NCBI GenBank assembly: GCA_002798295.1
Contig: NWQT01000014.1
Coordinates: 1 to 64,000 of the forward strand
From: Lysobacteraceae bacterium NML07-0707
Lineage (GTDB): Bacteria > Pseudomonadota > Gammaproteobacteria > Xanthomonadales > Xanthomonadaceae
DNA length: 64,000 bases
Reading direction: 5' to 3'
Part shown: piece by piece, positions 20,218 through 50,748 of the stretch
Layout of the letters: each line of letters begins with the position of its first letter
How positions within the stretch are numbered: position 1 is the first letter of the stretch
Position numbers and translations under genes: made by a program
The notes under the pieces: model-generated
Databases searched by the model: none
Seen by the model: the letters and a program-made list of their open reading frames with translations, nothing else
What the model was told of the DNA's origin: nothing

Positions 20218-20293
20218 CACGTTCTCTTGAAACGGTGTGATGCCAAGGATGGCATGATAGCCACACCCCATTCCAGCAGCCGTAAGCACTGCC

Positions 20294-20776: not shown

Positions 20777-20798
20777 TGTTGCTGGCAAAGCCCACACA

Positions 20799-20818: not shown

Positions 20819-20898
20819 CCGCCTGTTCTACAGTGGCTCAGGTCGGGTCGGCTAACCCCCCGCCCCGCGCAAACCTATCCACTTTTTGGAGATCGCGC

Positions 20899-21513
20899 AT
20901 GTCTGCCCAGCTCACCTTCTACACCCACCCCATGTCCCGTGGACGCGTCGTGCGCTGGATGCTGGAAGAAACCGGCCTGCCCTACAACACCGTGCTGCTG
21001 GAATACGGCACCACGATGAAAGCACCCGAATACCGCGCCATCAACCCGATGGGCAAGGTGCCCGCCATCCGCCACGGCGACACCGTGGTGACCGAAGTGG
21101 CGGCGATTTGCCTGTATCTGGCCGACCTCGTGCCCGAGAAAAAGCTCGCTCCGCCCGCGGGCAGCCCGGAGCGCGGCAGCTACTACCGCTGGATCAGCTT
21201 CATGGCGCCGCTGGAGCAGTTGATGATGGCCAAAGCCAGCGGCGGCAGCCTGCCCAAGCCGGAATCGGCCGGTTTCGGCACGGAGCAAGACCTGCTCGAC
21301 ACCCTGGAGGCCGCGCTCAAAGGCCGCGAACACCTGGCGGGAGACACCTTCACCGCCGCCGACTTGATGGTGGCCGCCTACGTGGGCTGGTATCTGCAGT
21401 TCCAACTGCTGGAGCCGCGCCCGGCCTTCGGGCAATTTGCCGAGCGTCACAGCCAGCGCCCCGCCGGACAGCGCGCCGATGAGATCGACAACGCCTTGCT
21501 GGCCGGGTCTTGA
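20899..21513 (+). CDS. Glutathione S-transferase family protein (copy 1)
   Basis: A 204-aa protein with an N-terminal thioredoxin-like domain (LTFYTHPMSRGRVVRWMLEE; the Ser in PMSRGR is the candidate catalytic position) and the cis-Pro region NPMGKVPAI. The helical C-terminal domain contains FTAADLMVAAYV. The start MSAQLTFYTHP follows a GGAG about 9 nt upstream; an in-frame extension lies across the promoter. It is paralogous to the next gene, and even the leader (CCACTTTTTGGAGATCGC) is shared. Likely regulated by the WYL protein through the shared motif. Confidence 0.93.
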   Translation: MSAQLTFYTHPMSRGRVVRWMLEETGLPYNTVLLEYGTTMKAPEYRAINPMGKVPAIRHGDTVVTEVAAICLYLADLVPEKKLAPPAGSPERGSYYRWISFMAPLEQLMMAKASGGSLPKPESAGFGTEQDLLDTLEAALKGREHLAGDTFTAADLMVAAYVGWYLQFQLLEPRPAFGQFAERHSQRPAGQRADEIDNALLAGS

Positions 21514-23711: not shown

Positions 23712-24394
23712 AAAAACCCACCATGGCCACTCAAAACATCACCGACGCCCAAACCCTCTACGCCGCATTAAGCGCCCGCGCCGCCCCCGAAGAAGCGCAG
23801 CACATGGCCGCGTATATGAAAAACCGCTTTTCCTTCTTTGGCATCCGCAAGCCTGAGCTGAATCGCCTTCTGAAACCCTTTCTCAAAGCCACACGCTGCC
23901 GTCCCGTCGATTGGGGCTTTGTCGAAGCCTGCTGGCAAGCCGAAGAACGCGAAATGCAGTACGCCGCGCTACTTTATCTGCAAGCGCGAAAAAGCGCGCT
24001 TCATGCCAAAGACCTCCCCGCGCTGCACCGCTTGATCACCCATAAATCGTGGTGGGACAGCATCGACGTACTCGATCGCATCGTCGGCGACATCGCCCTG
24101 CGCCACCCGCACCTCAACGCCACTCTGCTGGACTGGAGTACCGACGATAATTTTTGGCTGCGCCGCATCGCCATCGACCACCAACTCTTGCGCAAAGAGC
24201 GCACCGACACAGCGCTGCTCGCGCAAATTCTCATTAATAATCTGGGGCAAAAAGAATTTTTCATCAACAAAGCCATCGGCTGGGCGCTGCGCGATTACAG
24301 CAAAACCAACCCCGAATGGGTACGACAATTTATCGCCACGCACCGCGACCGCATGGCGCAGCTCAGCCTGCGCGAAGCACAAAAATATCTGTAA
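23708..24394 (+). CDS. AlkD-like DNA alkylation repair protein (HEAT-repeat)
   Basis: A 228-aa all-helical protein. Family signatures are MAAYMKNRFSFFGIRKPELN, EEREMQYAALLYL, the tract THKSWWDSIDVLDRIVG, and WLRRIAIDHQLLRKERTD followed by KEFFINKAIGWALRDYSKTN. AlkD-type glycosylases remove bulky or cationic alkyl-purines without base flipping. Here the WWDSID segment holds the expected aspartate and tryptophans. It is coupled to the TfoX-like gene by an ATGA overlap. With ogt 3 kb upstream it gives the region two alkylation-repair genes. Confidence 0.9.
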   Translation: MKKPTMATQNITDAQTLYAALSARAAPEEAQHMAAYMKNRFSFFGIRKPELNRLLKPFLKATRCRPVDWGFVEACWQAEEREMQYAALLYLQARKSALHAKDLPALHRLITHKSWWDSIDVLDRIVGDIALRHPHLNATLLDWSTDDNFWLRRIAIDHQLLRKERTDTALLAQILINNLGQKEFFINKAIGWALRDYSKTNPEWVRQFIATHRDRMAQLSLREAQKYL

Positions 24395-24432
24395 AACAAA
24401 AAAATCACCATCAATATACAAAGGACGAACAC

Positions 24433-24600
24433 ATGAAATACTGGGTCGGCACCGTCAGCAAAGAACACGTCATGCGCGGTGTGGCGGGCGGCTTTTGCCA
24501 GGTCTGCCACGGCAAAGCCGCACCCCTGCAGCGCATGCGCCAGGGGGACATGCTGCTGCACTACGGCCCGGTGCTGGGCAGGCTATATGGAAAGCTTTAA
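24433..24600 (+). pseudogene. EVE-domain protein, truncated after about 46 residues
   Basis: The first 46 codons (MKYWVGTVSKEHVMRGVAGG, then CQVCHGKAAPLQRMRQGDML) match the start of EVE-domain proteins, which bind modified bases and are normally about 145 aa. At about 24580 the frame enters the 3' part of an IS3-type transposase and stops at 24598-24600. The rest of the EVE gene is missing, so a deletion or one-ended insertion is likely. Confidence 0.8.
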
Positions 24601-24826
24601 CGCGAAATTCCGCGATGAATGCCTGAATGAGCAATGGTTCACATCGCTACAGCAAGCACGGCAAATCATTGCCCTGTGGCGGCAGGACTACAACGAAGTG
24701 CGCCCACACAGCAGCTGTGGCCGTATTCCGCCTGCCCGTTTCGCAGCCCAACATCAAACCGAAACACAACCCACAAATGCTGTAACCTTCAACCCGGACT
24801 TTGCTAGATTCGACTGGTACGGATAG
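24584..24826 (+). pseudogene. IS3-family transposase C-terminal fragment
   Basis: Reads MESFNAKFRDECLNEQWF and then YNEVRPHSSCGRIPPARFA, the end of the integrase core of IS3/IS51-type OrfB, terminating at 24826. The catalytic Asp residues lie upstream in complete enzymes and are absent here. No matching left end is found; the fragment is fused to the truncated EVE gene. It is not the same element as the fragment at the left edge of the window. Confidence 0.85.
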
Positions 24827-24841
24827 CGGGTGCAGGTCAAT

Positions 24842-24890
24842 ACAAAACTCAAATCAGGAGAAGACCATGAACCAAAAAACAAAAAATCTG
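24842..24890 (+). repeat. Duplicated gene leader, copy 1 (of 2)
   Basis: About 49 bp covering the ribosome site and first codons (CAAATCAGGAGAAGACCATG, then Asn-Gln-Lys codons and AAAAAATCTG). It recurs at 25361-25409 with only a few substitutions in front of a different gene. The shared part includes the first eight or so codons of both proteins (MNQKxKNLL). Confidence 0.8.
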
Positions 24891-25307
24891 TTAAAAATAA
24901 AAAAATTAACACCTGTTATTGCGGTGGAAAATGTACAGAAAACTGCAGAATTTTACACCAAATATTTAGGTTTCCAGTTGGCTTTTGCCGTTCCCAATCA
25001 CGAGACGGTGGAGCAATTTTTTGAAAATGACAAAGAATATCGTTATGCGATGCTGAAATCGGGAGAATTAGAGATCGCGTTTCAGCGATTAGATACTTTT
25101 CAAAACGATATTCCTTTCGCTAAAAATCAATCCATTGGGGGCTCGGTATCTTTTCATATGGATGTTGATAATATAGAAAATTTATACAATCGGTTGAAGT
25201 CTGAAAATTTGGAAGTTACCGAACTGAAAACGACTTGGTATGGCGTTCTCGAATTTTATCTAAAAGACCTAAACGGATACATATTAGAATTTACCCAATC
25301 AGCCTAA
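24867..25307 (+). CDS. VOC (glyoxalase/bleomycin-resistance-like) family protein, AT-rich
   Basis: A 146-aa vicinal-oxygen-chelate fold protein: LTPVIAVENVQKTAEFYTKY and the C-terminal GVLEFYLKDLNGYILEFTQ (metal-ligand Glu in the last strand). No specific substrate can be assigned. Codon use is strongly AT-rich, unlike all neighbours, indicating recent transfer. The start MNQKTKNLL has a strong AGGAG. Its leader and first codons are repeated before the next gene, and an 8-bp inverted repeat brackets the sequence after its stop. Confidence 0.88.
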   Translation: MNQKTKNLLKIKKLTPVIAVENVQKTAEFYTKYLGFQLAFAVPNHETVEQFFENDKEYRYAMLKSGELEIAFQRLDTFQNDIPFAKNQSIGGSVSFHMDVDNIENLYNRLKSENLEVTELKTTWYGVLEFYLKDLNGYILEFTQSA

Positions 25308-25357
25308 AATCAAGCCAATGAACTTGGTTTATGAGTTGAATTCAAGAACGGCTGATT
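25297..25357. repeat. 8-bp inverted repeat flanking the inter-cassette spacer
   Basis: AATCAGCC (25297-25304, abutting the VOC stop codon) and GGCTGATT (25350-25357, just before the second leader) are perfect inverted copies 45 bp apart. Inside lie shorter partially complementary segments (CAAG/CTTG). It resembles a recombination or hairpin site, but I could not fit it to an attC consensus. Confidence 0.4.
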
Positions 25358-25360
25358 GAC

Positions 25361-25409
25361 ACAAAACCCAAATCAGGAGAAGTCCATGAACCAAAAAGTA
25401 AAAAATCTG
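25361..25409 (+). repeat. Duplicated gene leader, copy 2 (of 2)
   Basis: Near-identical to 24842-24890: CAAATCAGGAGAAGTCCATG followed by codons for NQKVKNLL. The two downstream proteins are otherwise unrelated. Confidence 0.8.
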
Positions 25410-25736
25410 CTGGATGACTGGCAAATTACCAATCCCGCCTTGTATGAAATTGCCAATAGTGTACGCACGAAAATATTGCAACTAACCGACACAGTAGATG
25501 AAGAAGTGAAATATGGCGGCATTCTGTTTGCCGCACCTGAACCATTTTGCGGAATTTTTGTTTACAAGCAACATATATCTGTGGAATTTAGTCATGGCGC
25601 CGAGATAGCAGACCCACACGGTTTATTAGAAGGAAAAGGCAAAGGTCGCCGTCATTTGAAATTACATATGCTTGAAGACGTGGAAAATAAGCATTTGACG
25701 GATTACTTGCGATTGGCGCAAAAAGCAACAAAATAA
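25386..25736 (+). CDS. DUF1801 domain-containing protein, AT-rich
   Basis: A 116-aa protein resembling the YdhG/DUF1801 fold: EVKYGGILFAAPEPFCGIFV ('E...YG.P.F') and KGKGRRHLKLHMLEDVENKH. The function of the family is not established. Base composition is low-GC like the VOC gene before it, and the leader is duplicated from that gene, so both probably arrived together. The start MNQKVKNLL carries a strong AGGAG. Confidence 0.85.
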   Translation: MNQKVKNLLDDWQITNPALYEIANSVRTKILQLTDTVDEEVKYGGILFAAPEPFCGIFVYKQHISVEFSHGAEIADPHGLLEGKGKGRRHLKLHMLEDVENKHLTDYLRLAQKATK

Positions 25737-25973
25737 AATGCCGGTCTGGCAGATCGGCTTCTTGAAGCCGACATCACAGCCAAAGTTGCAGCCTTGTCGG
25801 ATATAGATATTCGGCTGACCTGCCCCCTCATAGGCGTACCACTTGATCCTGCAAGTCCATCAAACACGAGGATGGACATGGGGAAGAGTCTTTTTCCCAG
25901 AACAAAACATTGGTTTCTTGACGCAAGCCGAAGCCCGTGTGATCAGCATATTGCGCCCCAAGGAGGCCAGCCC
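25737..25973 (+). other. Gene-poor junction with coding remnants
   Basis: Holds a perfect 8-bp palindrome arm pair (TCGGCTTC-TT-GAAGCCGA, 25754-25771) and a coding-like stretch from 25743 (GLADRLLEADITAKVAALSD). TGACCTGCCCCC at 25816-25827 resembles an IS3-type end. A tail FLTQAEARVISILRPKEASP ends at the TGA that overlaps the RhuM ATG. RhuM genes often sit inside type I restriction operons after hsdM, so this tail may be the end of an hsdM-like gene; that is an inference. Confidence 0.35.
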
Positions 25974-26340
25974 ATGACGACACCCATCGAGATTTACCGC
26001 AGCGCCGACGGCCAGGCGCAGGTGGAAGTGCGCTTTGAGCAGGAGACGGTTTGGCTCTCGCAAGCCCAAATGGTTGAGCTGTTCGGACGCAACCAGTCCG
26101 TGATTTCACGCCACATTCGCAATGCCATCACCGAAGGCGAGATCGACGAAAAAAGCAATATGCAAAAAATGCATATTGCTTCTGCCGACCGCCCGGTGAC
26201 CTTCTACGACCTGGAAACCATCATTTCCGTCGGCTACCGCATCAAGTCGCCGCAAGGCGTGGCCTTTCGCCGCTGGGCCACCACCCGCCTGAAGGAATAC
26301 CTGCTGCAAGGCTACACGCTGGACCGCAAGCGCCTTGCGC
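25974..26340 (+). pseudogene. RhuM/virulence-associated family protein, 3'-truncated
   Basis: Starts at ATG 25974 with a strong AAGGAGG. The first about 122 residues are typical RhuM: VWLSQAQMVELFGRNQSVIS, HIRNAITEGEIDE, then VTFYDLETIISVGYRIKSPQ and FRRWATTRLKEYLLQGYTLD. Full proteins are roughly 330 aa. After RKRLAQ the sequence switches abruptly to an acetyltransferase tail in another frame, and the open frame simply runs to 26525. Many RhuM genes belong to type I restriction loci; none is present here. Confidence 0.8.
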
Positions 26341-38754: not shown

Positions 38755-39408
38755 CTATTTGGTAATACGGATAGCGACCTGTACCCATTCAGTACGCCAG
38801 AGATATTCAAATTCCCGACCATACTCTCTGCACCAATCCAACAAGGCACGATGCTCGTCGTCACTAAATTCTTTCTCCAGAATCATGAAATATTCATCGA
38901 ATAAAATGATGGTTCCTGGCACGATATGCGCATTCAGTGCATCCAGCGCATCCCGGGTGGAACTGTAAAGATCTGCATCCACATGGATAAATGCCAGCGG
39001 CTCCTGTAGCTCTTGCGCCAAAAGCGGCACCGTATCCTTGAACCAACCTGGAATCACATAAATATCTGGCGAATCAAACACCGGAATTTCATCCGGAAGC
39101 ATTGAAAATGCCCCTTTTTTCCAGATACCCACCCAGTCTTCCGGCAAGCCTTTGAAGCTATCCAGAAGATAAAGTTTCCGACCACCGAACAAAAATTTGG
39201 ACAAAAACCGGGCACAACGTCCTCTGTAAACCCCTAGCTCAATAAATGCACCTGGCAGGCTAACCTCTTCAACTGCCTTGTAAAGCGAAATCAGCTTGTA
39301 GCTGTACCAGGGATCCTTTCTGTCGTAAAGCGCAGGAACATGAATAACCCGAATATCCGGAAACAGTCGCCTCAACGCCTCTTGCCTGTATTCAGCAATT
39401 GCACTCAC
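38755..39408 (-). CDS. TylF/MycF-family SAM-dependent O-methyltransferase-like protein
   Basis: A 217-aa class I methyltransferase: FIELGVYRGRCARFLSKFL (motif I), LLDSFKGLPEDW, FIHVDADLYSSTRDALDAL (metal/catalytic Asp) and GTIILFDEYF. These are the landmarks of macrocin-O-methyltransferase-like sugar methylases. In this context it probably methylates a sugar or caps the glycan chain. It is the last gene of the seven-gene minus-strand run, 3 bp after the preceding stop. Confidence 0.85.
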   Translation of the reverse strand: MSAIAEYRQEALRRLFPDIRVIHVPALYDRKDPWYSYKLISLYKAVEEVSLPGAFIELGVYRGRCARFLSKFLFGGRKLYLLDSFKGLPEDWVGIWKKGAFSMLPDEIPVFDSPDIYVIPGWFKDTVPLLAQELQEPLAFIHVDADLYSSTRDALDALNAHIVPGTIILFDEYFMILEKEFSDDEHRALLDWCREYGREFEYLWRTEWVQVAIRITK

Positions 39409-39411
39409 AGG

Positions 39412-40443
39412 TCACATCTCATGAGAAATCAGTCTTTTCCATGGCGCCTCTGGAGCCACCCCATAAAACATGGCATTAATCAACATCGTCACCAAATTCA
39501 CAGTATTTAGTCCTACATCTGGATGACTCTTGATCCCGCGATGACGCACATTCCATAGCCCAACCCCACTTGGCACCCCTGCCGTCACAATAGAGGCAAA
39601 ACAAGGAGATTGCAGCGAAGTCAATACATATCCCCTGCTATCACCTTCTGCCGAAAGTATCAGTTTGCGAAATTTATCCATCTTTCTCACGGGAAAAGTA
39701 CCAATCGTAAAATGACTATCCCTGTGAATTGTCTCGTGATACATATCCGAAACAATTGGATCAACGGCGATAAACCCCACTCCCATTGAAACCCCATGAT
39801 AGAAAGCTCCGGTTCCCCCTTTACTTCCACCATAAAAAACAAACTTGTCAAGCCCCACACCAAGCCGATCGGAAACATGGCCAATAAGCGCACGTATTTT
39901 TCTCTCGCGATCAAGATCAAAGTTATTGTTCAGGTAAAAACTTCCAACCACCCCGCCAATATCAGAAATCCTCAAAACCGCAACATCATAGGGGATAAAT
40001 TTAGAAATGGACTTGAAGTTTCCAAAGAAGCATCTACGCTGAATACTGGCATTGTAAGGAAAATCAGCCACACTGGAAAAAACAACCAAGACCCGACCCG
40101 GCTTCACTCCCAGCGGCATCTGCAACTTGTAATACAGCCCACCAAAAAATTCACCATCAATATATTCAGAAAAAGCTTCTTCATGTCCTCCCCACAAAAA
40201 AGAAGAAACCCCATCACGATGTTTCACCATGTAATAACCAAGATTACTAAGCGCCACCACCAAAGCCTTGGCCGACACATCATTACGTGCAAGCCCATAT
40301 AAATTATGGTTCAACTTTACTTCTGAATTTGCCCCATGCGCAGACTTATCAACATCGAGGCGATCAACCCCATTAAGTCTAAACTTCAGCTCCAACTCAC
40401 TGACCCCAGCCAATTCTGAATAAGATACTCGCATAGAATCCAT
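39412..40443 (-). CDS. Alpha/beta-hydrolase-like capsule-locus protein (possibly XcbB/CpsF-like)
   Basis: A 343-aa protein. The central KFVFYGGSKGGTGAFYHGVS has the G-x-S-x-G nucleophile elbow of alpha/beta hydrolases. A preceding strand (LVVFSSVADF) and a C-terminal histidine-containing segment (VRHRGIKSHPDVG) could complete a triad. Proteins of this appearance occur in capsule loci (XcbB/CpsF-type) and in accessory Sec Asp2-like proteins, where acetyl transfer or hydrolysis has been suggested. The exact family and reaction are uncertain. AT-rich and embedded in the glycerol-phosphate polymer operon, 4 bp after the giant enzyme gene. Confidence 0.6.
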   Translation of the reverse strand: MDSMRVSYSELAGVSELELKFRLNGVDRLDVDKSAHGANSEVKLNHNLYGLARNDVSAKALVVALSNLGYYMVKHRDGVSSFLWGGHEEAFSEYIDGEFFGGLYYKLQMPLGVKPGRVLVVFSSVADFPYNASIQRRCFFGNFKSISKFIPYDVAVLRISDIGGVVGSFYLNNNFDLDRERKIRALIGHVSDRLGVGLDKFVFYGGSKGGTGAFYHGVSMGVGFIAVDPIVSDMYHETIHRDSHFTIGTFPVRKMDKFRKLILSAEGDSRGYVLTSLQSPCFASIVTAGVPSGVGLWNVRHRGIKSHPDVGLNTVNLVTMLINAMFYGVAPEAPWKRLISHEM

Positions 40444-40447
40444 GGCA

Positions 40448-43400
40448 TCACCCCAAGATCTTCATGAATGAATCAAGCGCATTCCTCTGATAGCTATCTG
40501 CATCGAACTGCCCTGCATAGAAGCCATTCTCAATGCAATCTATCATTGCATTGGCCAGTCCATCATCACTGTTTTCAACCAGCTTTCCATAACGCCCCTC
40601 CAAAACACCACGATTGCCATCAATATCAGTGGCAATAATCGCCTTACCCAAAGTCATCGCCTCCAGCAGCACCATCGGCTGCCCCTCATGGTTGGAAGAG
40701 AGCACAAAGCAATTGGCCGCCTTTACCACCGGGAATGGATTCATCCTCAAACCCGCAAAAAACACGTGATGACGCAAGCCGAGTTCATCCACAAGCATTT
40801 CAAGGTCATTTCTGAGCATCCCATCTCCCATGACAATCAGTCTTGCCTGATCATGAACCCTCACAACCTTCGAAAAGGCTCGCAGCAGTTTAGCATGATC
40901 TTTTTCAAGCGACAAACGACCAGAAATAACAAAAACAGCGCCCCCAGCCAACCAGGGTTTCATATCCTCATCTACTTCGCCATCAGCCTTCGAGTGGATA
41001 CTTGAAAAATCGATAATATTTTCGCAACCAATGAACTTCTCCTTGTCCAAGCTATAGCGCCAAGAAAGGTTTGACATGTTTACATCAGACATTCTTTCAG
41101 ACACCGAGACAAGGAAATCATATTTGTGAATGAAATTGAAAACCCCCTCAAGATAAGGAAGTTTTTTCCGATGCTCCGCCCAAAGGTCACTATGGAAATA
41201 CATCAACTTCCTGACATTCCCAGGCGCAACCCCTAGCAAATTGCATGTAACCGCATTGTAACCTTCAAAATTCACTACTGCATCGTGTTTCATGTCACCA
41301 AAAACACGACGGTACTCCCATGCATAAGCCGAAGTAAGCACATCAAGCATTTCAGGCGACTCCAGCTTGCGCTTGCTGCTAAAACGATTTGTAATCCAAA
41401 TCTCCTCCGGAGTCATTACCATTCGCCCTATTCGCGCAATTTTCTTTACACTCTCCGGCATTGCCTCAAATTTTTCCACCCTTACCGGATCAATCATCAC
41501 CTTGTCAGGCTCGAAAAGCATTGAAATTTGCAGATTTTCCTCACTCTCCAATACGGTCAACAAATTCAAGCAGGATGCCGTAATTCCATTAGCTGGAAAC
41601 AAGCCATTGTAAAAAATTACCGAGCGTCGCGCATCGTCATAACGGCTAACCAAATGTGAATTATCGTCATGAAAGAAAAACTCGACTACACGCTCAGTGG
41701 CAGCACCATCTTCGAACGAGCAAAACTTTGCATGGGCCTCTTCATAGCGCTGCCGCTGCTCGATATCCACTTCACCAGCAAGCGCTGCATTGATTTGTTC
41801 TCGAACCCCGGCAGCAGTCAACTCTATGACTCCGGGAAAACCTTCCTCACCGAAATACATGCCCCGGCCAGCGGCATATTCCTCAAAATCATAGGCATAA
41901 TGGATGATTGGGCGTCCTGTAGGGATAAAGTCGAAGAATATGCTTGAGTAGTCCGTCACCAGCACATCCACGCAAGCGAGCAGTTCGCAGGTATCAATAT
42001 GCTGTGGAACGGTGGCAACCAGCTCCTCCATTCCCTCCAGTGCCGATTCCATGAAGTGATGCCCGCGGAAAATCAGCTGATAACCGGCATCCGACATGGC
42101 CTCGATATCCGCAAAAAGCTTATCCTTGTCAACACTGGGCTTTCCATGTCCGCCTCGCCAAGTGGGCGCATACAACACAATTGGCCTGCCATCTTCCAAG
42201 CCCATCTCTTTTGCCAGCACCCTGCGTTTATCCCCGCAATCGTCAAACACTGCATCGATACGAGGATAGCCAGTCTCAGCCAGTTTTCCGGAATAAATTC
42301 CGGCAATATCGTTATCGTTGAACAGCGCATCACTGGTATGCGCATTGGGGCTGATGACATGCGTTGCATGCAAAAAATTGCGTGTTATATTGCCATGCGC
42401 CATCGGCTCATTTTGCATTCTTTTCCCAAGATACTTGAGTGGCGTGCCATGCCAAGTGTTCAAGTACTTTTGCTCCTCGCGACGACTGAACCAGTATGGG
42501 AAAGTCACATTGTTGATCAAGTACTCTGCCGTTGCCAAATAACGCCGGTAGGCATCACTTTCGCGCGGAATGAAAATCACATTCGGATGCCCCAACCATT
42601 CTTCCGGAACCCCGGAAATATCATTGATGACCCAAACATGCTGCCAGCCATCGAAACGCGAATCGGCCACAATTTTCTTGAAGATGGCATACGGGTTGCA
42701 CGACATCGAGGCGCCAAGATAGCTCTCGTAAAATACGCTATTCTTCTGCACGGGCAGCGTATCCCAATACTCGCGGTACTCCATCAACGCCTTGACCGTT
42801 TTGTCCTTTTCGTATGCCGTGAAATCTACCCCATAAGCGCGTTTCAATATTCTTGCATTGCGGAAAGACTGACAGGCAGCCTCCCACTCCCCCAGCTCCA
42901 TCAGGCAAGTTGCCAGCTGAAAATGCCAAGCGCTCACATGACTGGCACTACGTTCAATCGCATAACGATATGCCGCAATTGCCACATTCCACTTACTTTC
43001 CAACTCGTATTTCTTGGCGAATTGAACTACCGATTCCGATGAAGGCATCTTGCCTGCGATCAACCTGTAGAAAAGTTGCGGCTCATCACCAACAACTATT
43101 CCATCCGGATCATTAATTTCACAAATCTCTTCTTGTACTTCATCAGGCGACTCAATCGTTTGCGCAAGTTCCATTTCGCGCTCTCTTTTAAATTCTAGAT
43201 AACGTTGTTTTTCAGAAAGACTGTAAATTTTCGCCGCTTGCTCAAATTCACCTATTTCATGCAAGCAATATCCTGCTCGGTAAGCCCAGTAGGGCTTGTG
43301 CGCCTTGTCAATAAGCACGGCATTAAGATAAGCATCCGCTGCATCCCGCCACATCTCCTGTCTTTCAAGAACAAAGCCACGCCGGTAATGCCAATACGAA

Positions 43401-44812
43401 CTTTCAGGGTCAAGCAGCAACCCATTAGTATAGGCCTGCTCTGCTTCTTTCCATTGATAGCAGCGATCTAGCGCCATACCCATCTTAAAATATAATCCCG
43501 AGTCAAATGCCTCATGACGCAGCCTTTTTTCATAGGCCTCAGCAGCTTCTTTCCATTGACCTCGGTTCTGATGAAAAACCCCGACACCAAACTTTTCAGC
43601 TTCCAGTTTTTTTCCTTTTTTGATTGCCGCAGCATAGGCCTTTTCTGCCTTAGCGCCACGTCCTGCACGCTCCAACATGTTGCCAAACCGATATTCCCAA
43701 ACCCCATCTTTTGAGGGCTTGAGCTCAAGCGCACGCGCCATGGGTGCAATGGCCAAATCAGGATTGCCCATTCGATCCTGAAAATCTGCAAGACGGAAGT
43801 AGAAGTCCGCATTCTCAGGGTCAAGCGCAATTGCATCACTTAGCACATCAGCAGCCTGCCAAAGCCGCCCCTGCTTCTCCATCGCATTGACAAGAAAAAT
43901 TTTGTACTCAAGATTATCCGGCTCAAAACGTAGCAAGAAATTTATGGCCTCCTCAGCCGCTCCCCAGATAGCGTTTTTTACCGAATAAATATAAGCTGCA
44001 AAGACCTGCTGACGAGCATCTTCACCCAGCTGCAACAAGAGCTTGATCAGAGCGGAAGAAAATATACCGATCTCCCTGGCGGAAAGCTTCCCCACAGGAC
44101 GAATCAGCAGTTGCCTGGATTCGTCTGTCGCCAAGTTTTTGATGACACTTATTGGATCCCCCCCCTTGCTCATTACCCAGGCCCATACCATATCGATTTT
44201 TTTTGAGGGGTCACGTAACTCATGAACCCCATATTGGCAGAAATGAAGAAAGGGATTAAATTTACTGGCCTTGACATCCTGATTATTTTCAAGATAGTAG
44301 TCTGAATCGAACCATGCATTAGGACTATTCTTTGTACTCCGCCCTTGATCAAGATAATGCCTCAATGGCTCAACCTCCTCCCATTCCTCAAACTGGGATT
44401 TATAGTGAGCCTCGTCAAAAAGACCAGTCTCACTGACCACTTTCCAATCGGAACCTAAAAATTCCTCCAAAAATATAGCTGTACTACGGGACTTTTCTTC
44501 ATTAATTTCTTTTTGCTTCCTGCAAAAATGAATAAAGGGATGCTCCCCCGTATCTGCAATTTCCGGATTAGCCTCAACATAAGCAGCCGAATCGAACTCT
44601 GGGATCGGACTTCTCCCCTCTGCATATCCATATCGAACATAATGCTCCACTGGATCCATTTTGCTCTTTGCCACATCCGGGTATCGCGAAAGGTAATCCT
44701 GCTCATCAAAAAAACCAAAGAATTTTATTTTTTCAACTTCCGCATTGATATTCTTTCCGGCCATTCCAGCAAAACCATCCATGCCAGCAATTTTCTTAAA
44801 AATACCTTTCAT
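40448..44812 (-). CDS. Giant multidomain enzyme: repeats + TPR + TagF-like CDP-glycerol phosphotransferase + GT4 glycosyltransferase
   Basis: A 1454-aa, apparently cytosolic or membrane-associated protein. Residues about 30-215 hold four copies of the FD..YL...YPDV...P..HY...G repeat. About 250-570 is a TPR superhelix (WEYRFGNMLERAGRGAKAEK, YWHYRRGFVLERQEMWRDAA). About 690-1020 is a TagF-type domain (NTWHGTPLKYLGKRM near 784; VLVTDYSSIFFDFIPTGRP near 952). About 1065-1454 is a GT4 glycosyltransferase (FVISGRLSLEKDHAKLLRAF, LSSNHEGQPMVLLEAMTLGK). Probably alternates glycerol-phosphate and sugar addition to a surface polymer. Confidence 0.88.
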   Translation of the reverse strand: MKGIFKKIAGMDGFAGMAGKNINAEVEKIKFFGFFDEQDYLSRYPDVAKSKMDPVEHYVRYGYAEGRSPIPEFDSAAYVEANPEIADTGEHPFIHFCRKQKEINEEKSRSTAIFLEEFLGSDWKVVSETGLFDEAHYKSQFEEWEEVEPLRHYLDQGRSTKNSPNAWFDSDYYLENNQDVKASKFNPFLHFCQYGVHELRDPSKKIDMVWAWVMSKGGDPISVIKNLATDESRQLLIRPVGKLSAREIGIFSSALIKLLLQLGEDARQQVFAAYIYSVKNAIWGAAEEAINFLLRFEPDNLEYKIFLVNAMEKQGRLWQAADVLSDAIALDPENADFYFRLADFQDRMGNPDLAIAPMARALELKPSKDGVWEYRFGNMLERAGRGAKAEKAYAAAIKKGKKLEAEKFGVGVFHQNRGQWKEAAEAYEKRLRHEAFDSGLYFKMGMALDRCYQWKEAEQAYTNGLLLDPESSYWHYRRGFVLERQEMWRDAADAYLNAVLIDKAHKPYWAYRAGYCLHEIGEFEQAAKIYSLSEKQRYLEFKREREMELAQTIESPDEVQEEICEINDPDGIVVGDEPQLFYRLIAGKMPSSESVVQFAKKYELESKWNVAIAAYRYAIERSASHVSAWHFQLATCLMELGEWEAACQSFRNARILKRAYGVDFTAYEKDKTVKALMEYREYWDTLPVQKNSVFYESYLGASMSCNPYAIFKKIVADSRFDGWQHVWVINDISGVPEEWLGHPNVIFIPRESDAYRRYLATAEYLINNVTFPYWFSRREEQKYLNTWHGTPLKYLGKRMQNEPMAHGNITRNFLHATHVISPNAHTSDALFNDNDIAGIYSGKLAETGYPRIDAVFDDCGDKRRVLAKEMGLEDGRPIVLYAPTWRGGHGKPSVDKDKLFADIEAMSDAGYQLIFRGHHFMESALEGMEELVATVPQHIDTCELLACVDVLVTDYSSIFFDFIPTGRPIIHYAYDFEEYAAGRGMYFGEEGFPGVIELTAAGVREQINAALAGEVDIEQRQRYEEAHAKFCSFEDGAATERVVEFFFHDDNSHLVSRYDDARRSVIFYNGLFPANGITASCLNLLTVLESEENLQISMLFEPDKVMIDPVRVEKFEAMPESVKKIARIGRMVMTPEEIWITNRFSSKRKLESPEMLDVLTSAYAWEYRRVFGDMKHDAVVNFEGYNAVTCNLLGVAPGNVRKLMYFHSDLWAEHRKKLPYLEGVFNFIHKYDFLVSVSERMSDVNMSNLSWRYSLDKEKFIGCENIIDFSSIHSKADGEVDEDMKPWLAGGAVFVISGRLSLEKDHAKLLRAFSKVVRVHDQARLIVMGDGMLRNDLEMLVDELGLRHHVFFAGLRMNPFPVVKAANCFVLSSNHEGQPMVLLEAMTLGKAIIATDIDGNRGVLEGRYGKLVENSDDGLANAMIDCIENGFYAGQFDADSYQRNALDSFMKILG

Positions 44813-44830
44813 TTAAAAAATCCACCAATT

Positions 44831-45217
44831 TTAATTACCAAGCGTCTGCTTTATTTCCGTCGTCGAAATGCCTTCTGTTCGACTCAAATAAACAACTTCA
44901 CAATACTCTGAAATAAAATCAAACTTTCCTTTCCAGTCATCACCCATCACAAATATCGACGCTCCGTATTTGGCAATATCCGATATTTTTTGTTCCCAGT
45001 TATTCTCTGGAAACACCTCATCCACATAGCGAATAGCCTCAAGCACCACTTTCCTGTTTGCATAGTTCAGCAGGGAAGACTTGTGCTTACCCCTGTTGAA
45101 TTCATCAGACGACAACCCTACAACCAACCGATCTCCCAATGCTCTGGCTCGACGCAACAAATTGATATGCCCGAAATGCAAAATATCAAAAGTTCCATAT
45201 GTAATTACAGTTTTCAT
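44831..45217 (-). CDS. tagD: Glycerol-3-phosphate cytidylyltransferase
   Basis: Forms CDP-glycerol from CTP and sn-glycerol-3-phosphate. The 128-aa nucleotidyltransferase has GTFDILHFGHINLLRRA with His14/His17 (HxGH) and the C-terminal RTEGISTTEIK, the RTEGISTT signature of TagD/GCT. Start MKTVITYGTFD overlaps the stop of the upstream giant gene by 4 nt (ATGA). Its presence between the two TagF-domain proteins is the best evidence that the polymer contains glycerol phosphate. Confidence 0.93.
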   Translation of the reverse strand: MKTVITYGTFDILHFGHINLLRRARALGDRLVVGLSSDEFNRGKHKSSLLNYANRKVVLEAIRYVDEVFPENNWEQKISDIAKYGASIFVMGDDWKGKFDFISEYCEVVYLSRTEGISTTEIKQTLGN

Positions 45218-48200
45218 CCGACCATTCCTCCAATCCAACCCGTTGCAACCCTATTAATACCAAAAGTATCTTTTACCCTTCTCACCACTCTTGCCGAGCT
45301 CAAATCATCCTTATAGTCAAAAAAGAGCCTTTTTTTCCATTCAAGCTGCAATGCCGATTCTCCACTGTCCTCCTTGAAAAGCTCAAGCAATGCTGCCTTC
45401 AGAGAAGCGAAGTCATAGCAAACCCTGCCCGGGAAAACCATCTCCAAGTCATAGTAGGAGCCCCTTTCCATCTCGATGTAGCTCGTATAATCATAGGCAA
45501 AGCTCAATGCCGGCTTGCCAGTAAGCATGTAGTCGATGAAGCAGCTCGAATAATCCGTGATCAGTGCATCAGACTGGCGATACAGCATTTCCACATTGGG
45601 CCAGTCTTCTTCACAAAGCGAAACCACGCCTGGCATACCCGAAAACTGTGAACTGTAGCTCCTGGCACGATCCGCCATATGCTCCCTGATCCCTAGCAGC
45701 AAATCATTCTGTGCCAACCAATCAGCAATCCAGGCAAGCTCCTCCGCACTGAAAATGTAATAACCTCCAAGTTCCTGCCTGTTCCTGAAGGTCGGCATGA
45801 ACAAGATCAGTTTCTTCCCATCTTTCAGTCCAGCCAATCTCTCCAATTCTTCCTTCATGTCCTCAGGAAGCCAGCTCGCATCCCGCATTATGAAATCGTT
45901 CCTTGGGAGCCCGGTATTCCATATATCATTATAGCTCATCGGATAGAAGGATGAGGCCATTGCCATCATATCTATCTTGGAAGACGAAATGACCGCACGA
46001 CATGCCGCATGCTCCAGAGAGATTGCCCCGAGATTACCCTTCATGTCCTCCGACGCATAACCAATCCGTTTAAACGGAATGCCGTGCCACAGATTTATGA
46101 TATTATGCAAATCTGGAGCGACAGGATAGCCTATATTTCTGCTTGGGCTATGCCTTATGAATATGTTTGAACAGCGCATCATGAATTGCTGACCCGCAGC
46201 ACTCCGTAATGGAACACGCTCGACATTAACGCCATCCACACCCACATCTTTCTCAAGATAGAAAACGACTTTTTTGATCAGAGGATCATTCTTGACCTCC
46301 TCAAAAACCGCCCTTTCGTTCCCTGAAAAATTTCCGGTAAAACCGCAAACAGGAAACCCCCACCAGTCGGAATGTTTCGGAACATCCCTGTCAGTCACGG
46401 CAAACTCTTCGTTACTCATGAACTCTGCATTGATGAAACTTTCCATGTCGTCATCCGCAGCAAATAACTCGCCAACATGGAGATTTTTATCCAGAAGATC
46501 CGCATCGACAACCCTTTCGAGATTGCTTTGAATCATCCTCGTATCAGCTTCGGGAAAGGCCGACTTGACTCGAGTTTCCCAGGCATGCAAGCCGGGAACC
46601 CGGTAGTGATTTATCGCGAACAGGTTTCTCTTCAACAGCGGAAATCCATCTTCCAGCATTTTGAAGTATGAAGCTCCGTAAACCGGATGAAGTGGGTAAA
46701 GATGATCCATATACGTTGCAAAACCATAACCCCAGGAGAGCAAATTTCTGGTAATGCCTACCTCATACTTCCTTATCAAAACCAGCTTTTCTTCATCATT
46801 TCCTGCAGAAGAAAGAACCCTCCTGAAACGATCATCTGCAATTACATTCTTTCTGAAGGAAAGAAAATATGACCCCACCATAAAATCATAGGGATAATCA
46901 AATTCAAACCCACCAATCAACTGCTCCTTGACCGCTGCCATCGGAATGGGGTCTTTAAATCTGTTGACCAGCTTGTCCTTAGTCATATACAGACCTTTGG
47001 TTGCCTGCATTCCCCACCAGTCCAGAGTTTGGCCATCCATCTTGGCAAAGACCGGATCAAGAGAGCCTAGAAGATAACAGCTGTCATTTATCAGCAACAA
47101 CTCGTCATATTCCTCCACCTTACTCCAACCAATGCGCTTCAACAATTTTGCATAAGATCCAAAATCATACCCGCCGTGCGGCTTTGCCCACGCACCCTTT
47201 ACCCATGGCTGCAACTTGAGCAGCTCTTCATTCGAAATATCACAATCAGCAAAATAATAGATGTCCGCAAACCGCGACAATTCCTCAAGGTACTTGAGGA
47301 CATATTCATCAACAATACCACCCTTATCATAGCCTGCAAAAAAGCAAATCCTTTTTGGCTTTTTTCCAACCCCGTAACTTACCCCTTCTCCATACGGCTT
47401 CTTTAGCGGAGGAGTCGGCAGAAGCCCATCAGACTGCCCCACAGACAAGTAGTGATTCAATGGATTAATTTCATTGCAGGCAGGATCAAGATAGCTACTC
47501 CAGTACCACCACAAATCAAAATTCTTCGATGGATTTTTAAGCTCTTTCCACCCCTTTTTAGCAAAGTGCAAAAGCGGACTCTCATCCGGCAACAGTTCGT
47601 CTCTATTTTGTTCAACATAGAATGCAGTATCAAAAAATCGGTTTGGATTCCTTTTTTCATTCTCCCCATATCTAATAAAGTGCTCTACAGGATCCACTCC
47701 CGCCACATCCGGATAATTTTCTATATAGTATTCAGAGTCAAAAAGACCACTATTCAAAATCTCATTTTTATCACTTTCAATCTGGGATTGAGCATACCCC
47801 GCAGCTCGACCGACATTAACATAGTGGAAAATCGGATTCTCCCCCATGTCCACCATGTAATTTTCACGGTACCAGGCAGCATCAAACCCTGCACTCGGCT
47901 GACGATCTTCTTTCCATCCATGTTGCAAATAGTGCGCTACCGGATCATTTCCGCCGATATCTGGATATTTATCTAGGTAGTAATCCGGATCAAAAACCCC
48001 GCTCCCCATAAGCACCCGTCTATCCTTGTCAAATTTGGACAGGAAATGCTGATTGGAGCCTGCTGCCTTATAATGTGAAAGAGGGTTGCCTTGTTGCCCA
48101 GCCATGTAGTTTTTTTGATACCAAACAGGATCGAAATCCTTGCTTGGCAGCCGCCCCTCTTTCCAGCCAAAAAGACAGTAGTGGGACAAGGCGTTCCCAG

Positions 48201-48819
48201 GAACAATATCCGGATATTGTTTCAGATAGAATACAGAATCAAACAACTCTGATGGCGAGACCCCCTCATACTCACCAACACGCAAATAATGCCTCAGCGC
48301 CCCACCTGGATAATCAGCAGCATCGGGCATTAATTTTACATAAAAAGCTTCATCAAAAAGACCGGAGTCTCGAATAATTTCGAATGACAGCTTCTCGCTC
48401 TCATTTCTGAAAAACCCAGACTTAAGCCCTTCCGAAAAATAATGCCGCAATGGATCCTTTCCTGCTACCGAATAACTTGACGAATACCATTTTGAGTCAA
48501 AATTCACCGATGGATTTCTTCCCTCCCGCCACCCTATACAACAATAATGAGCAAACGGATCCCATCCAGACTTCGAAACATCTGCATTCGACGTTACATA
48601 GTATTCACTATCGAATTCCTCACACGGAACAAATCGCTGCTCCGGTGCCAGCAAAAAATAGTGCTCCACAGCATCCTGCAATGAAAATTTTTCCCCCGGA
48701 TAGTGCCTTGAGTAGCTATCCAGATCAAACAGGCCAGACTCGAGCAGTGATTTTACTTGTTGACGTTTTACCCGCCCCGACCACCACTTACTGATCCAGG
48801 AAGTCAATTTTCCACTCAT
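45214..48819 (-). CDS. Giant multidomain enzyme: eleven-unit repeat + RgpF-like + TagF-like domain
   Basis: About 1201 aa. Residues 25-480 are about eleven degenerate repeats (FDPDYYLDKYPDIGGNDPVA is the clearest), many ending in EGR.P. About 488-790 resembles rhamnan-synthesis RgpF glycosyltransferases (RICFFAGYDKGGIVDEYVLK, KPHGGYDFGSYAKLLKRIGW). About 820-1190 is a TagF-type domain (INLWHGIPFKRIGY near 910; ITDYSSCFIDYMLTGKPALS near 1093). ATG 48819 has GGTGA upstream; a GTG at 48828 overlapping the ATPase stop is an alternative. Likely primes or elongates the polymer. Confidence 0.86.
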   Translation of the reverse strand: MSGKLTSWISKWWSGRVKRQQVKSLLESGLFDLDSYSRHYPGEKFSLQDAVEHYFLLAPEQRFVPCEEFDSEYYVTSNADVSKSGWDPFAHYCCIGWREGRNPSVNFDSKWYSSSYSVAGKDPLRHYFSEGLKSGFFRNESEKLSFEIIRDSGLFDEAFYVKLMPDAADYPGGALRHYLRVGEYEGVSPSELFDSVFYLKQYPDIVPGNALSHYCLFGWKEGRLPSKDFDPVWYQKNYMAGQQGNPLSHYKAAGSNQHFLSKFDKDRRVLMGSGVFDPDYYLDKYPDIGGNDPVAHYLQHGWKEDRQPSAGFDAAWYRENYMVDMGENPIFHYVNVGRAAGYAQSQIESDKNEILNSGLFDSEYYIENYPDVAGVDPVEHFIRYGENEKRNPNRFFDTAFYVEQNRDELLPDESPLLHFAKKGWKELKNPSKNFDLWWYWSSYLDPACNEINPLNHYLSVGQSDGLLPTPPLKKPYGEGVSYGVGKKPKRICFFAGYDKGGIVDEYVLKYLEELSRFADIYYFADCDISNEELLKLQPWVKGAWAKPHGGYDFGSYAKLLKRIGWSKVEEYDELLLINDSCYLLGSLDPVFAKMDGQTLDWWGMQATKGLYMTKDKLVNRFKDPIPMAAVKEQLIGGFEFDYPYDFMVGSYFLSFRKNVIADDRFRRVLSSAGNDEEKLVLIRKYEVGITRNLLSWGYGFATYMDHLYPLHPVYGASYFKMLEDGFPLLKRNLFAINHYRVPGLHAWETRVKSAFPEADTRMIQSNLERVVDADLLDKNLHVGELFAADDDMESFINAEFMSNEEFAVTDRDVPKHSDWWGFPVCGFTGNFSGNERAVFEEVKNDPLIKKVVFYLEKDVGVDGVNVERVPLRSAAGQQFMMRCSNIFIRHSPSRNIGYPVAPDLHNIINLWHGIPFKRIGYASEDMKGNLGAISLEHAACRAVISSSKIDMMAMASSFYPMSYNDIWNTGLPRNDFIMRDASWLPEDMKEELERLAGLKDGKKLILFMPTFRNRQELGGYYIFSAEELAWIADWLAQNDLLLGIREHMADRARSYSSQFSGMPGVVSLCEEDWPNVEMLYRQSDALITDYSSCFIDYMLTGKPALSFAYDYTSYIEMERGSYYDLEMVFPGRVCYDFASLKAALLELFKEDSGESALQLEWKKRLFFDYKDDLSSARVVRRVKDTFGINRVATGWIGGMVG
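47395..48745 (-). repeat. Array of about eleven FD-x-x-Y-Y protein repeats (coding)
   Basis: Within the 1201-aa protein, units of about 36-50 residues start at FD and follow FD..YY...YPD....P..HY...G..EGR.P. They fall into a higher order: units preceded by (S)G-L/V-FD start groups of three, three, two and three, and the third unit of a group has WY..NY instead of YY..YPD and lacks EGR. DNA identity between units is low, so the array is old. Related units occur four times in the 1454-aa protein. Confidence 0.7.
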
Positions 48820-48824
48820 ATACG

Positions 48825-49958
48825 TCACCGGATTTCAATGGCCAGCGATCTTACTGTAGGCAAAACCCCACCAAGATCATTCTCGTTTGCTCCTGCATAC
48901 ACGAAAACTTTTGATGAAAAATCAGCACTATTGAAATCCAGAAATCCACAGGGGACAAAGATCCTGAACCCGTAATCACCTGAAGATTTCCCCAGGTAAT
49001 CATTAACGTCCTGCCGCTCCAGTCGTTGAAAAGAACTAATTTCAAACTTGCCGGCCGGCGTATCAATAAAAATATAATTTGCCATGCTTTTCTTTTGAGT
49101 GGCCGCCCAACCAGTTATCTCAATGCCGGCTTTACCAACAACAACTTTTTCAATTGCCCCCATTGTGTCACCAAAAAGCAATGGATCAGAAGCATGAACA
49201 TCTGCAAGATTTTTCCCACCAACTTTCGTTACCAGCGCCTTGTAGAAGCCAAGACCGTCATCCATCCCTCCGTAAAAAACAATGCGCCCCTTGTCCAGAA
49301 CTATTGCTTTGTTGCACAACGACTTCATGATGTTCGAACTATGGCTGGCAATAATGGAAATACGGCTACCATTGAAGCGGCTGAGCATGCGATTTTTAGC
49401 CTTCTCCACGAAAGCGGAGTCGCCTGTTCCGATCCACTCATCCATCAACAAAATATCCGGCTGAATTGACGTGGAAATGGCAAAACCAAGACGCATCCTC
49501 TGACCGGCGGAAAGTGTATGCAATTGCCGACCAGCCATATCGGATAGGCCTGAAAAATCCAGAATCTCGTCCATTGCACGCGTCGCTTGTTGATAGCGAA
49601 GCCCCATGGCTGTTCCGCGCAGAACAATGTTTTCAGACACAGTGGCATATTCATTAAAGCCCAGCATGGTGCTGATCAGCGACTGCAAGCTGCCATGGCG
49701 GTTTATGCTACCACTGGTTGGGCAAATCGCACCGTTGAGCACGCGAAGCAATGTAGTTTTTCCTGCTCCATTCAATCCCATGATGCCGACACGATCACCC
49801 TCCTCAGCGCGAAAGTTGATATTTGAAAGCACTGTAGCGAAATTGGTTCGCGTCAATGCCAAAGCAGAAAGCCAGCCCTCACTTTTAGTATAAGCTTCTC
49901 CCTGCGTCTCGTAAGGAAGCTCCAAGTACACACCCTTGGCTTCAATAAATGATTTCAT
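48825..49958 (-). CDS. ABC transporter ATP-binding protein for polysaccharide export (Wzt/TagH type) with C-terminal extension
   Basis: A 377-aa protein. Walker A GLNGAGKTT at 61-69, Q-loop region with GFNEYATVSENIVLRG, signature LSAGQRMRLGFA and Walker B ILLMDEWIGTGD are typical of the KpsT/Wzt/TagH subfamily. The last about 130 residues form an extension (VVVGKAGIEITGWAATQKKS ... YGFRIFVP) that looks like a small beta-sandwich. In Wzt such extensions bind the finished glycan end; the same role is inferred here. It starts 1 bp after the permease stop. Confidence 0.92.
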   Translation of the reverse strand: MKSFIEAKGVYLELPYETQGEAYTKSEGWLSALALTRTNFATVLSNINFRAEEGDRVGIMGLNGAGKTTLLRVLNGAICPTSGSINRHGSLQSLISTMLGFNEYATVSENIVLRGTAMGLRYQQATRAMDEILDFSGLSDMAGRQLHTLSAGQRMRLGFAISTSIQPDILLMDEWIGTGDSAFVEKAKNRMLSRFNGSRISIIASHSSNIMKSLCNKAIVLDKGRIVFYGGMDDGLGFYKALVTKVGGKNLADVHASDPLLFGDTMGAIEKVVVGKAGIEITGWAATQKKSMANYIFIDTPAGKFEISSFQRLERQDVNDYLGKSSGDYGFRIFVPCGFLDFNSADFSSKVFVYAGANENDLGGVLPTVRSLAIEIR

Positions 49959-49959
49959 C

Positions 49960-50748
49960 TTAGATCCACACTGGAATACGCTTAGAAAAGTTCTTGTAGC
50001 TAAAAACAGCCGCAAACATTCCCAAAACTGTCATAATAGCAACATAAATCCATGTTAGCGGCTCAATAGCCACATCCACCAGCGGATCCCTGACTATGGC
50101 AATTAAGTGATGCAGTGGATTAGCCTTCATAAACAGGTTTTGCATACTACCCTCTGGCACCGAACTCGGATACCAGACAATAGGCGTCAGCAAAAACAAC
50201 ATCATGGTGAGATTAGCCAGAAACTCACTAAAATCTGGCAACTTTGCCCCGAGAATACTGATTGCCACCCCCCATGAATAAACATTAAAAATAACTATCA
50301 GCAAGCCAGCAAATGCCATCGGAATTCCGACTGGGTCAAATTGTTCAGACATTAATAGTGCCACGAATAAAACAGGCACCGCAAACAAAAAGAGTATCAA
50401 TGACTTAACCAAAGTCGAAAGAACATAATCGGTATATATCACCTTGCCATCATTGATATACGGCGCATGTACTCGATAGGTAGACGCGCAATCATTGGCA
50501 ACGGTAACGATCAACCTAAAAAGAACAAAGCTCACACCTACGTGCGCCATGAATGGTCGCAATCGCCCCGGATTCAGCATACCAAGAAACCAGCCAACCC
50601 CCCACACATAGACAATTGGCGGAAAAATAACCCAAAAAATACCAAGCAAGTTTTTTCTTGCTCCTGTCACAATCGACAACCATGCGGCGTACAACCAATG
50701 GTCCGGCCGACGCAAACTATCGCGCGTATCCCTGATCAAAGACAACAT
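49960..50748 (-). CDS. ABC-2 type polysaccharide export permease (Wzm/KpsM/TagG type)
   Basis: A 262-aa inner-membrane protein with six predicted helices (LLGIFWVIFPPIVYVWGVGW, LILFLFAVPVLFVALLM, FLANLTMMLFLLTPIVWYPS, MTVLGMFAAVFSY). It has the ABC-2 segment NPLHHLIAIVRDPL near the C-terminus. It is the first gene of the seven-gene minus-strand run and pairs with the ATPase that follows. No outer-membrane export protein, KpsE/KpsD or KpsC/KpsS homologue is found next to it. Confidence 0.92.
   Translation of the reverse strand: MLSLIRDTRDSLRRPDHWLYAAWLSIVTGARKNLLGIFWVIFPPIVYVWGVGWFLGMLNPGRLRPFMAHVGVSFVLFRLIVTVANDCASTYRVHAPYINDGKVIYTDYVLSTLVKSLILFLFAVPVLFVALLMSEQFDPVGIPMAFAGLLIVIFNVYSWGVAISILGAKLPDFSEFLANLTMMLFLLTPIVWYPSSVPEGSMQNLFMKANPLHHLIAIVRDPLVDVAIEPLTWIYVAIMTVLGMFAAVFSYKNFSKRIPVWI

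Follow-up and report, generated by a model that had tools for sequence, protein, structure and literature searches.

The 64,000-nucleotide stretch of Lysobacteraceae bacterium NML07-0707 studied here (contig NWQT01000014.1, positions 1 to 64,000; hereafter the window) carries on its minus strand, at 38755–50748, seven genes predicted to make and export a teichoic-acid-like surface polymer. We consider it rather likely that this locus is a serotype-type cassette for an ABC-exported, O-acetylated and methylated poly(glycosyl-glycerol-phosphate), which would be primed by an RgpF-TagF fusion protein and probably be linked to lipopolysaccharide (LPS). The source genome comprises 2.39 Mb in 54 contigs and is given as 100% complete. 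What is new is the setting of a Cps3D-type polymerase alongside a Wzm/Wzt-type exporter, rather than the packing of its activities into a giant protein.

Gene order and composition of the locus

All seven open reading frames (ORFs) are present, in the transcription order Wzm, Wzt, RgpF-TagF, TagD, 1454-residue giant, XcbB/CpsF-family protein and TylF-type methyltransferase (Table 1). The first-pass annotation described a single run of mostly near-touching or overlapping genes, and this is what we found: with the starts as listed, the gaps between neighbours are 3, 4, 18, −25, −4 and −56 bases. Two starts appear to be better placed further downstream, that of Wzt at ATG 49958 (377 rather than 396 amino acids, 1 base past the Wzm stop) and that of TagD at ATG 45217 (a 4-base overlap with the RgpF-TagF stop), after which every gap or overlap is at most 18 bases. 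The AT-rich shift ascribed to the run was confirmed by both GC content (0.458, against 0.584–0.629 in 57 overlapping 12-kb segments of the rest of the window and 0.569–0.639 in five stretches elsewhere in the genome) and GC content at third codon positions (0.40–0.48 in the seven genes, against 0.70–0.76 in five neighbouring genes). Another AT-rich dip (GC 0.471) lies outside the locus at 24001–26000.

Table 1. Genes of the predicted glycerol-phosphate polymer locus, in order of transcription
Product	Position in window	Strand	Evidence
Wzm-type ABC-2 permease, 262 aa	49960..50748	-	PF01061
Wzt-type ATPase, 377 aa from ATG 49958, C-terminal extension of ~115 aa	48825..49958	-	PF00005
RgpF-TagF fusion, 1204 aa	45214..48828	-	PF05045 + PF04464
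TagD, glycerol-3-phosphate cytidylyltransferase, 128 aa from ATG 45217	44831..45217	-	TIGR01518, motifs
Cps3D-like polymerase, 1454 aa	40448..44812	-	PF04464, PF00534, TPR families, PDB 8qoy
XcbB/CpsF-family protein, 343 aa, probable O-acetyltransferase	39412..40443	-	NF033892, PDB 9hvz
TylF-type methyltransferase, 217 aa, GTG start	38755..39408	-	PF05711

Searches against Pfam and NCBIfam upheld the domain calls made from the letters, except that the protein described as alpha/beta-hydrolase-like belongs instead to the XcbB/CpsF family. Neither the catalytic residues of TagD nor the TagF domains have been lost (TIGR01518 and PF04464 matches, motifs intact). Protein families, motifs, a conserved gene order and the 750-bit match of the giant to Cps3D give good support to the proposal that synthesis, decoration and export of a glycerol-phosphate polymer are all encoded in this run.

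Predicted precursor synthesis and the Cps3D-like polymerase

TagD scores 182.2 bits against TIGR01518 (equivalog cut-off 165.4) and contains both expected motifs, HxGH (as HFGH) and RTEGIS. The 1454-residue giant and RgpF-TagF account for the only two PF04464 matches in the genome. From its N-terminus, the giant comprises a region of repeats, tetratricopeptide repeats (TPRs, several families from ~306 to 659), a TagF-like domain (686–1047; PF04464, 253.8 bits, Pfam cut-off 22.1) and a family 4 glycosyltransferase (GT4) domain of the GT-B fold at ~1290–1430 (PF00534, 89.7 bits at 1291–1430). By direct reading of the sequence, the motifs WHGTP, YAPTWR, RGHH, TDYSS and EGQPMVLLE are present. The giant matches PDB entry 8qoy (Cps3D) at E 3.2e-224 and 750 bits, with aligned stretches that span the TPR, TagF and GT-B regions.

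At the family level, the giant thus has the TagF motifs, the GT-B domain C-terminal to TagF and the TPRs of the TagF/GT-B capsule polymerases, an architecture defined, mostly with TPRs, within the TagF-like capsule polymerases (PMC5974469). By sequence it is a clear Cps3D homologue. The first-pass annotation called the packing of polymerase activities into two very large repeat-bearing proteins unusual; given this homology, the packing in the 1454-residue giant is already known (PMC5974469; PMC11666461), while RgpF-TagF with its helical repeats is less usual. Cps3D and Cps7D are reported to yield galactosyl-glycerol-phosphate polymers in vitro (PMC5974469; PMC11666461). The structure of Cps3D has been solved, with its TPR domain described as required for primer extension and processivity (PMC11666461), and a protein from Campylobacter HS:1 that has both activities has also been characterised (PMC11924219). 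Judged from its enzymes, the product here would be a poly(glycosylglycerol phosphate), very likely as far as the glycerol phosphate is concerned.

The RgpF-TagF fusion

RgpF-TagF consists of ten helical repeats (~25–480), an RgpF domain (528–790) and a TagF-like domain (~800–1193). The PF04464 match scores 179.7 bits (cut-off 22.1) and the PF05045 match 76.3 bits (cut-off 25), the latter covering profile positions 6–255 of 503 only. An AlphaFold model of residues 481–1195 has a mean predicted local distance difference test score (pLDDT) of 88.1, and its residues ~800–1193 superpose on TagF with Z 34.7–35.7 and a root-mean-square deviation of 3.2–3.8 over 365–373 aligned residues. The TagF histidine motifs WHG (H915) and REH (H1050) are intact in 18 of the 21 aligned rows, including that of the window. 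The three rows without them are all from Nocardioides (L091, L093 and L097), suggesting that the TagF halves of these homologues are either inactive or changed in activity. As for the RgpF domain, VIA-align rows in the PDB structure search start no earlier than model residue 297, and in a viral structure library 2 of the 50 matches listed are named rhamnan synthesis F (227 and 233 columns matched). Judged by title, the open-access literature that our search returned for RgpF paired with TagF or related terms concerns Gram-positive cell walls only.

The repeat units of 36–48 residues carry the motifs FDxxYY / DPxxHY, and the ten in RgpF-TagF occupy residues 25–480 (window positions 47389–48756). 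Counted by one simple pattern, there are 10 in the window protein and 0–8 in 20 other rows. The region is modelled as helix pairs (pLDDT 86.9); since its predicted template modelling score (pTM) is just 0.52, the lack of a structural match (best Foldseek E 1.0, no PDB sequence match at E 5, no credible Pfam match) is weak evidence. ORFs that match the repeats only were found in six more genomes (G009, G027, G028, G030, G031 and G044).

The rmlB, rmlA, rmlC and rmlD genes are consecutive in the source genome, each above its TIGR equivalog cut-off. Of the 12 non-Lysobacteraceae loci in a search of 21 stretches (8 Lysobacteraceae loci and 12 others), 6 have rml genes adjoining RgpF-TagF (L087 with no more than a partial RmlA), an association that points, only indirectly, to rhamnose as the RgpF donor.

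Putative decorating enzymes

The XcbB/CpsF-family protein scores 211.5 bits against NF033892 (curated cut-off 125) and matches PDB entry 9hvz and its sister entries (E 7.1e-65, 222 bits). The name of one molecule in this group ends in "ACoA", which, going by names alone, we take to mean acetyl-CoA. All five aligned rows, the window included, conserve Ser207 of the GxSKG motif and His307 of the HPD motif. Together, the family match, the 9hvz hit and the invariant residues make it likely that this protein O-acetylates the chain. Among the matches listed in an open-access search for XcbB, no title concerned enzyme activity. The methyltransferase matches PF05711 (TylF) at 71.3 bits (cut-off 23), and homologues 56–59% identical occur in the G026, G378 and G324 loci.

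Predicted export and attachment of the chain

Wzm matches PF01061 (ABC2_membrane) at 29 bits (cut-off 26.9) and Wzt matches PF00005 (ABC_tran) at 76.7 bits (cut-off 25). The C-terminal extension of Wzt matched no Pfam model. We also considered that it might correspond to the N-terminal domain of a Pseudomonas Cps3D-like protein and rejected this, as BLASTP gave nothing. In published models of such exporters, the C-terminal domain of Wzt recognises a chain with a modified end, and chain length is set by the enzyme that terminates it (PMC6286764), while chains of the group with extension-less Wzt are typically described as lacking such terminal modification (PMC3989065). With a Wzt extension and a methyltransferase in one run, a methyl end cap that the C-terminal domain of Wzt would read is plausible by analogy.

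The source genome contains no match to PF05159 (KpsC/KpsS), PF02563 (Poly_export; KpsD/CtrA/Wza-type) or PF03808 (TagA/WecG). Among 14 control genomes, PF05159 was found in 2 (E. coli and B. subtilis), PF02563 in 4 (E. coli included) and PF03808 in 7, so that the searches are able to detect the first two families. PF05159 was also absent from the four Wzm/Wzt-type relatives tested (G156, G214, G362 and G378); the single genome with a match among ten relatives tested was the flagellar-type G180. On these zero counts, a group 2 capsule with KpsC/KpsS (PF05159 and PF02563) and a complete wall-teichoic-acid pathway (PF03808) were both rejected. One gene for a PF04932 (WaaL-like) ligase was found, at the family level only. 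Of two PF00953 genes, one is WecA-like, again at the family level only; the PF00953 gene beside an ORF read as MurF is presumably MraY, and the other lies beside a TPR protein that we take to be LapB.

The locus therefore has a Wzm/Wzt-kind exporter in a genome with an undecaprenyl-phosphate initiator and a ligase at the family level, as expected of an O-antigen locus. The first-pass annotation left the choice between capsule and O-chain open. The O-chain fits better and a capsule is disfavoured: the genome encodes a Wzm/Wzt pair together with a WaaL-like ligase and a WecA-like enzyme, whereas neither PF05159 nor Poly_export is matched. A true capsule, in which the same polymer would sit on another lipid anchor and leave through an unrecognised outer-membrane porin, seems unlikely to us: Cps3D, the nearest characterised polymerase, is reported to serve a group 2 capsule (PMC11666461) and the XcbB/CpsF family is named for capsular polysaccharide biosynthesis, but the genome lacks the two capsule families and the best NCBIfam relatives of the exporter are galactan Wzm/Wzt and, for Wzt, also TagH.

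Conservation of the gene set

A 714-residue RgpF-TagF core was matched in 27 of the 398 genomes of the order, its own included. A scan of named genomes yielded 44 loci in Lysobacteraceae, Pseudomonas, Alphaproteobacteria, Actinomycetota and others, in all of which the seven query genes were sought. Eight complete Lysobacteraceae loci were compared (the window, L074, L075, L076, L078, L079, L083 and G362), leaving out L077/L021, on a 5.6-kb contig, and L098/G386, at a contig end. The gene order does recur elsewhere, as Wzm, Wzt, RgpF-TagF and TagD are present in all eight. Behind TagD the loci differ: four (the window, L074, L075 with two copies, and L078) have a TagF-GT4 giant, L079 has a TPR-TagF giant without a GT4 match, and L076, L083 and G362 have giants that carry family 2 glycosyltransferase (GT2) and/or GT4 domains but are not matched by PF04464. 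Identity to the window proteins is 45–54% for RgpF-TagF at these loci and 36–41% for the TagF-GT4 giants. All seven genes have homologues in a Pseudoxanthomonas PXM01 locus, where the methyltransferase is encoded on the opposite strand, and Lysobacter sp. A03 has homologues of most of them. Beside its TagF giant, L079 also encodes (17195–21484) a 1430-residue protein in which a further PF04464 match is combined with a glycerophosphodiesterase (GDPD) domain at the C-terminus and which perhaps trims the chain.

That RgpF-TagF stays constant while the polymerases change fits a primer role, and we infer that the fusion most likely primes the chain. The alternative is that RgpF-TagF, as the main polymerase, builds a backbone of rhamnosyl-glycerol-phosphate, and that the Cps3D-like giant makes a second block or a side chain. 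Its layout, an N-terminal sugar transferase followed by TagF, resembles that of the GT-A/TagF capsule polymerases (PMC5974469), and in L076, L083 and G362, where two post-TagD giants were checked and lack PF04464, RgpF-TagF is the sole glycerophosphotransferase seen. However, in L074, L075 and L078 RgpF-TagF is 47–54% identical to that of the window against 36–41% for the TagF-GT4 giants, as expected of a common primer, and the serotypes App3 and App7 are reported to have primers 93% and 96% identical and polymerases only 38% identical (PMC11666461). We therefore hold the polymerase role for RgpF-TagF to be rather unlikely and prefer that of a primer.

In a tree of RgpF-TagF, a supported clade (98/95) unites Isoptericola and Demequina with the window and five further Proteobacteria rows, and G362 and L083 fall outside; several forks are open and the window branch is long. 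The grouping suggests transfer of RgpF-TagF between phyla. In Pseudomonas fulva (L080, 159–17114), RgpF-TagF, TagD and a Cps3D-like giant lie near a DUF4214/RTX protein, rml genes and an ABC gene that we read as of the type I secretion kind, and L087 and L106 have a similar layout. Sets of this type could possibly glycosylate a secreted protein.

A swappable site beside EamA

An EamA homologue is present in all 17 genomes of the genus, that of the window included. We examined 15 of the 16 same-genus sites (G015 was left out), of which 14 were informative (the G008 contig ends too soon). The site is empty in 11 of the 15 relatives, where EamA lies near a LysR-family gene read as OxyR with a gap of 147–2538 bases, and is occupied by Wzm/Wzt genes in three (G001, G012 and G009). 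These Wzm and Wzt proteins are 62–63% and 56–60% identical to those of the window; within Wzt, the core is 67–71% identical and the C-terminal part 35–39%. The synthesis genes beside them differ: GT2 and a pyruvyltransferase in G001, and a PF05159+RgpF fusion (L146, 12905–15538) with a DAHP-synthetase-family protein nearby in G009, which perhaps makes a chain capped with 3-deoxy-D-manno-octulosonic acid (Kdo) for the same exporter. An empty or refilled site is, by analogy, the pattern of a serotype locus. In the window, an ORF read as a P-type ATPase stands on the far side of the island and OxyR has no match within the 64 kb, so that only one junction is shared. Near the cassette of G012 (L144, 2–4012) there are ORFs that read as Rhs-like.

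Relatives in flagellar clusters

TagD and TagF-domain genes also occur in the flagellar clusters of five TagF-bearing Lysobacteraceae relatives without the full fusion, G026, G180, G281, G324 and G194 (L022/L023, L070, L071, L072 and L073). FleQ and RpoN genes adjoin all five sets and FliF lies within the stretch in four; homologues of XcbB and the methyltransferase are found in two (G026 and G324). These sets are likely to be flagellin-modifying versions, with glycerol-phosphate glycans on flagellin as a possible product, and they suggest that flagellar clusters, too, have acquired a similar set of enzymes. Together with the P. fulva set near the type I secretion-kind gene and the DUF4214/RTX protein, they are what would favour a role of the window enzymes in cytoplasmic glycosylation of a protein, either flagellin or a secreted one. 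Yet the 20-kb stretches of the flagellar-type loci have no match to Wzm or Wzt at E 1e-5, whereas the window set forms one run with Wzm/Wzt, and no FliF, FleQ or RpoN was matched in the window at E 1e-20. Flagellin glycosylation was rejected for the window locus on that result, and protein glycosylation as a whole is very improbable there.

Proposed pathway and points against it

In the pathway that we favour, TagD would make CDP-glycerol. RgpF-TagF would act first on a lipid-linked primer, its RgpF domain adding rhamnose from dTDP-L-rhamnose and its TagF domain glycerol phosphate, and would thereby fill the role of CpsA/CpsC, which in Actinobacillus act on poly(Kdo). The 1454-residue giant would then alternate glycerol-3-phosphate, by its TagF-like domain, with a sugar, by its GT4 domain. 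The XcbB/CpsF protein would probably O-acetylate the chain and the TylF-type enzyme would methylate it, perhaps as the end cap for the Wzt C-terminal domain. The finished chain would be exported by Wzm/Wzt on undecaprenyl diphosphate and attached to the LPS core by the WaaL-type ligase.

Several observations weigh against this scheme, which is predicted from genes. RgpF-TagF occurs without any Cps3D-like giant in three of the eight complete loci, so it may itself be a phosphate-adding polymerase. The exporter scores stay under the NCBIfam cut-offs, at 98.6 bits for Wzm against a galactan cut-off of 380, and at 162.8 (galactan) and 140.6 bits (TagH-type) for Wzt. At E 1e-20, neither the WaaL-like nor the WecA-like protein hit any NCBIfam model, and their genes lie on other contigs than the locus, so their tie to it can only be presumed. 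No rml genes stand beside any of the eight Lysobacteraceae loci. A fast-evolving Wzt C-terminal domain need not indicate polymer specificity. Finally, G009, with the same exporter and site, carries a PF05159 domain fused to RgpF, which means that Kdo-type chemistry is not foreign to the EamA site.

As a more general and tentative proposal, the locus may represent a second, Kdo-independent route to teichoic-acid-like polymers, with RgpF-TagF priming, extension by a Cps3D-type or other giant, Wzm/Wzt export and WaaL linkage, and with the number of helical repeats as a new chain-length ruler or docking scaffold. The Gram-negative teichoic-acid-like polymers in the papers considered here were worked out in group 2 capsules, of which a Kdo anchor and its exporter are fixed components. 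Among the matches listed in our open-access searches, we found no description of a Cps3D-type polymerase with Wzm/Wzt, and pairing Wzm and Wzt with glycerol phosphate, teichoic acid and O antigen returned nothing. If the favoured pathway is true, the same polymerase class is portable between capsule and O-antigen routes, and TagD, RgpF-TagF and the Cps3D-like giant form an enzyme set with which priming without poly(Kdo) can be studied and helical repeats can be probed as chain-length determinants.

Comparison with known systems

With the Cps3D and Cps7D systems of Actinobacillus pleuropneumoniae, the locus shares the order TPR, TagF-like domain and GT-B, a cytidylyltransferase gene in the cluster and the strong match to 8qoy. 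Unlike them, it has extra N-terminal repeats in the giant and a Wzm/Wzt-type exporter, in a genome with no PF05159 or Poly_export match. A separate CpsA-type protein was not found either, the other PF04464 match in the genome being RgpF-TagF only. CpsA and CpsC have been identified as primers (PMC11666461), and RgpF-TagF resembles them as a PF04464 enzyme beside TagD and a polymerase that is better conserved than the polymerase itself; here, in contrast, PF04464 is part of a fusion with RgpF and helical repeats, whose activity is predicted from sequence.

Gram-positive wall teichoic acid synthesis likewise uses TagD, TagF-type transferases and ABC export of the TagGH kind, but TagA/WecG was not found in the genome and the enzymes are here fused into giants. 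The locus differs from Wzm/Wzt-dependent O-antigen loci in its predicted teichoic-acid-like polymer and in a Wzt extension without a Pfam match, and is like them in having the exporter pair first, a Wzt extension, a methyltransferase in the run and cassette swapping at one site. Teichoic-like polyols are not unheard of in O-antigens: a Wzy-type O-antigen locus of Haemophilus parainfluenzae strain 17 is reported to include genes for CDP-ribitol (PMC3989065), and so shares with the present locus a predicted polyol phosphate in the O-antigen of a Gram-negative bacterium.

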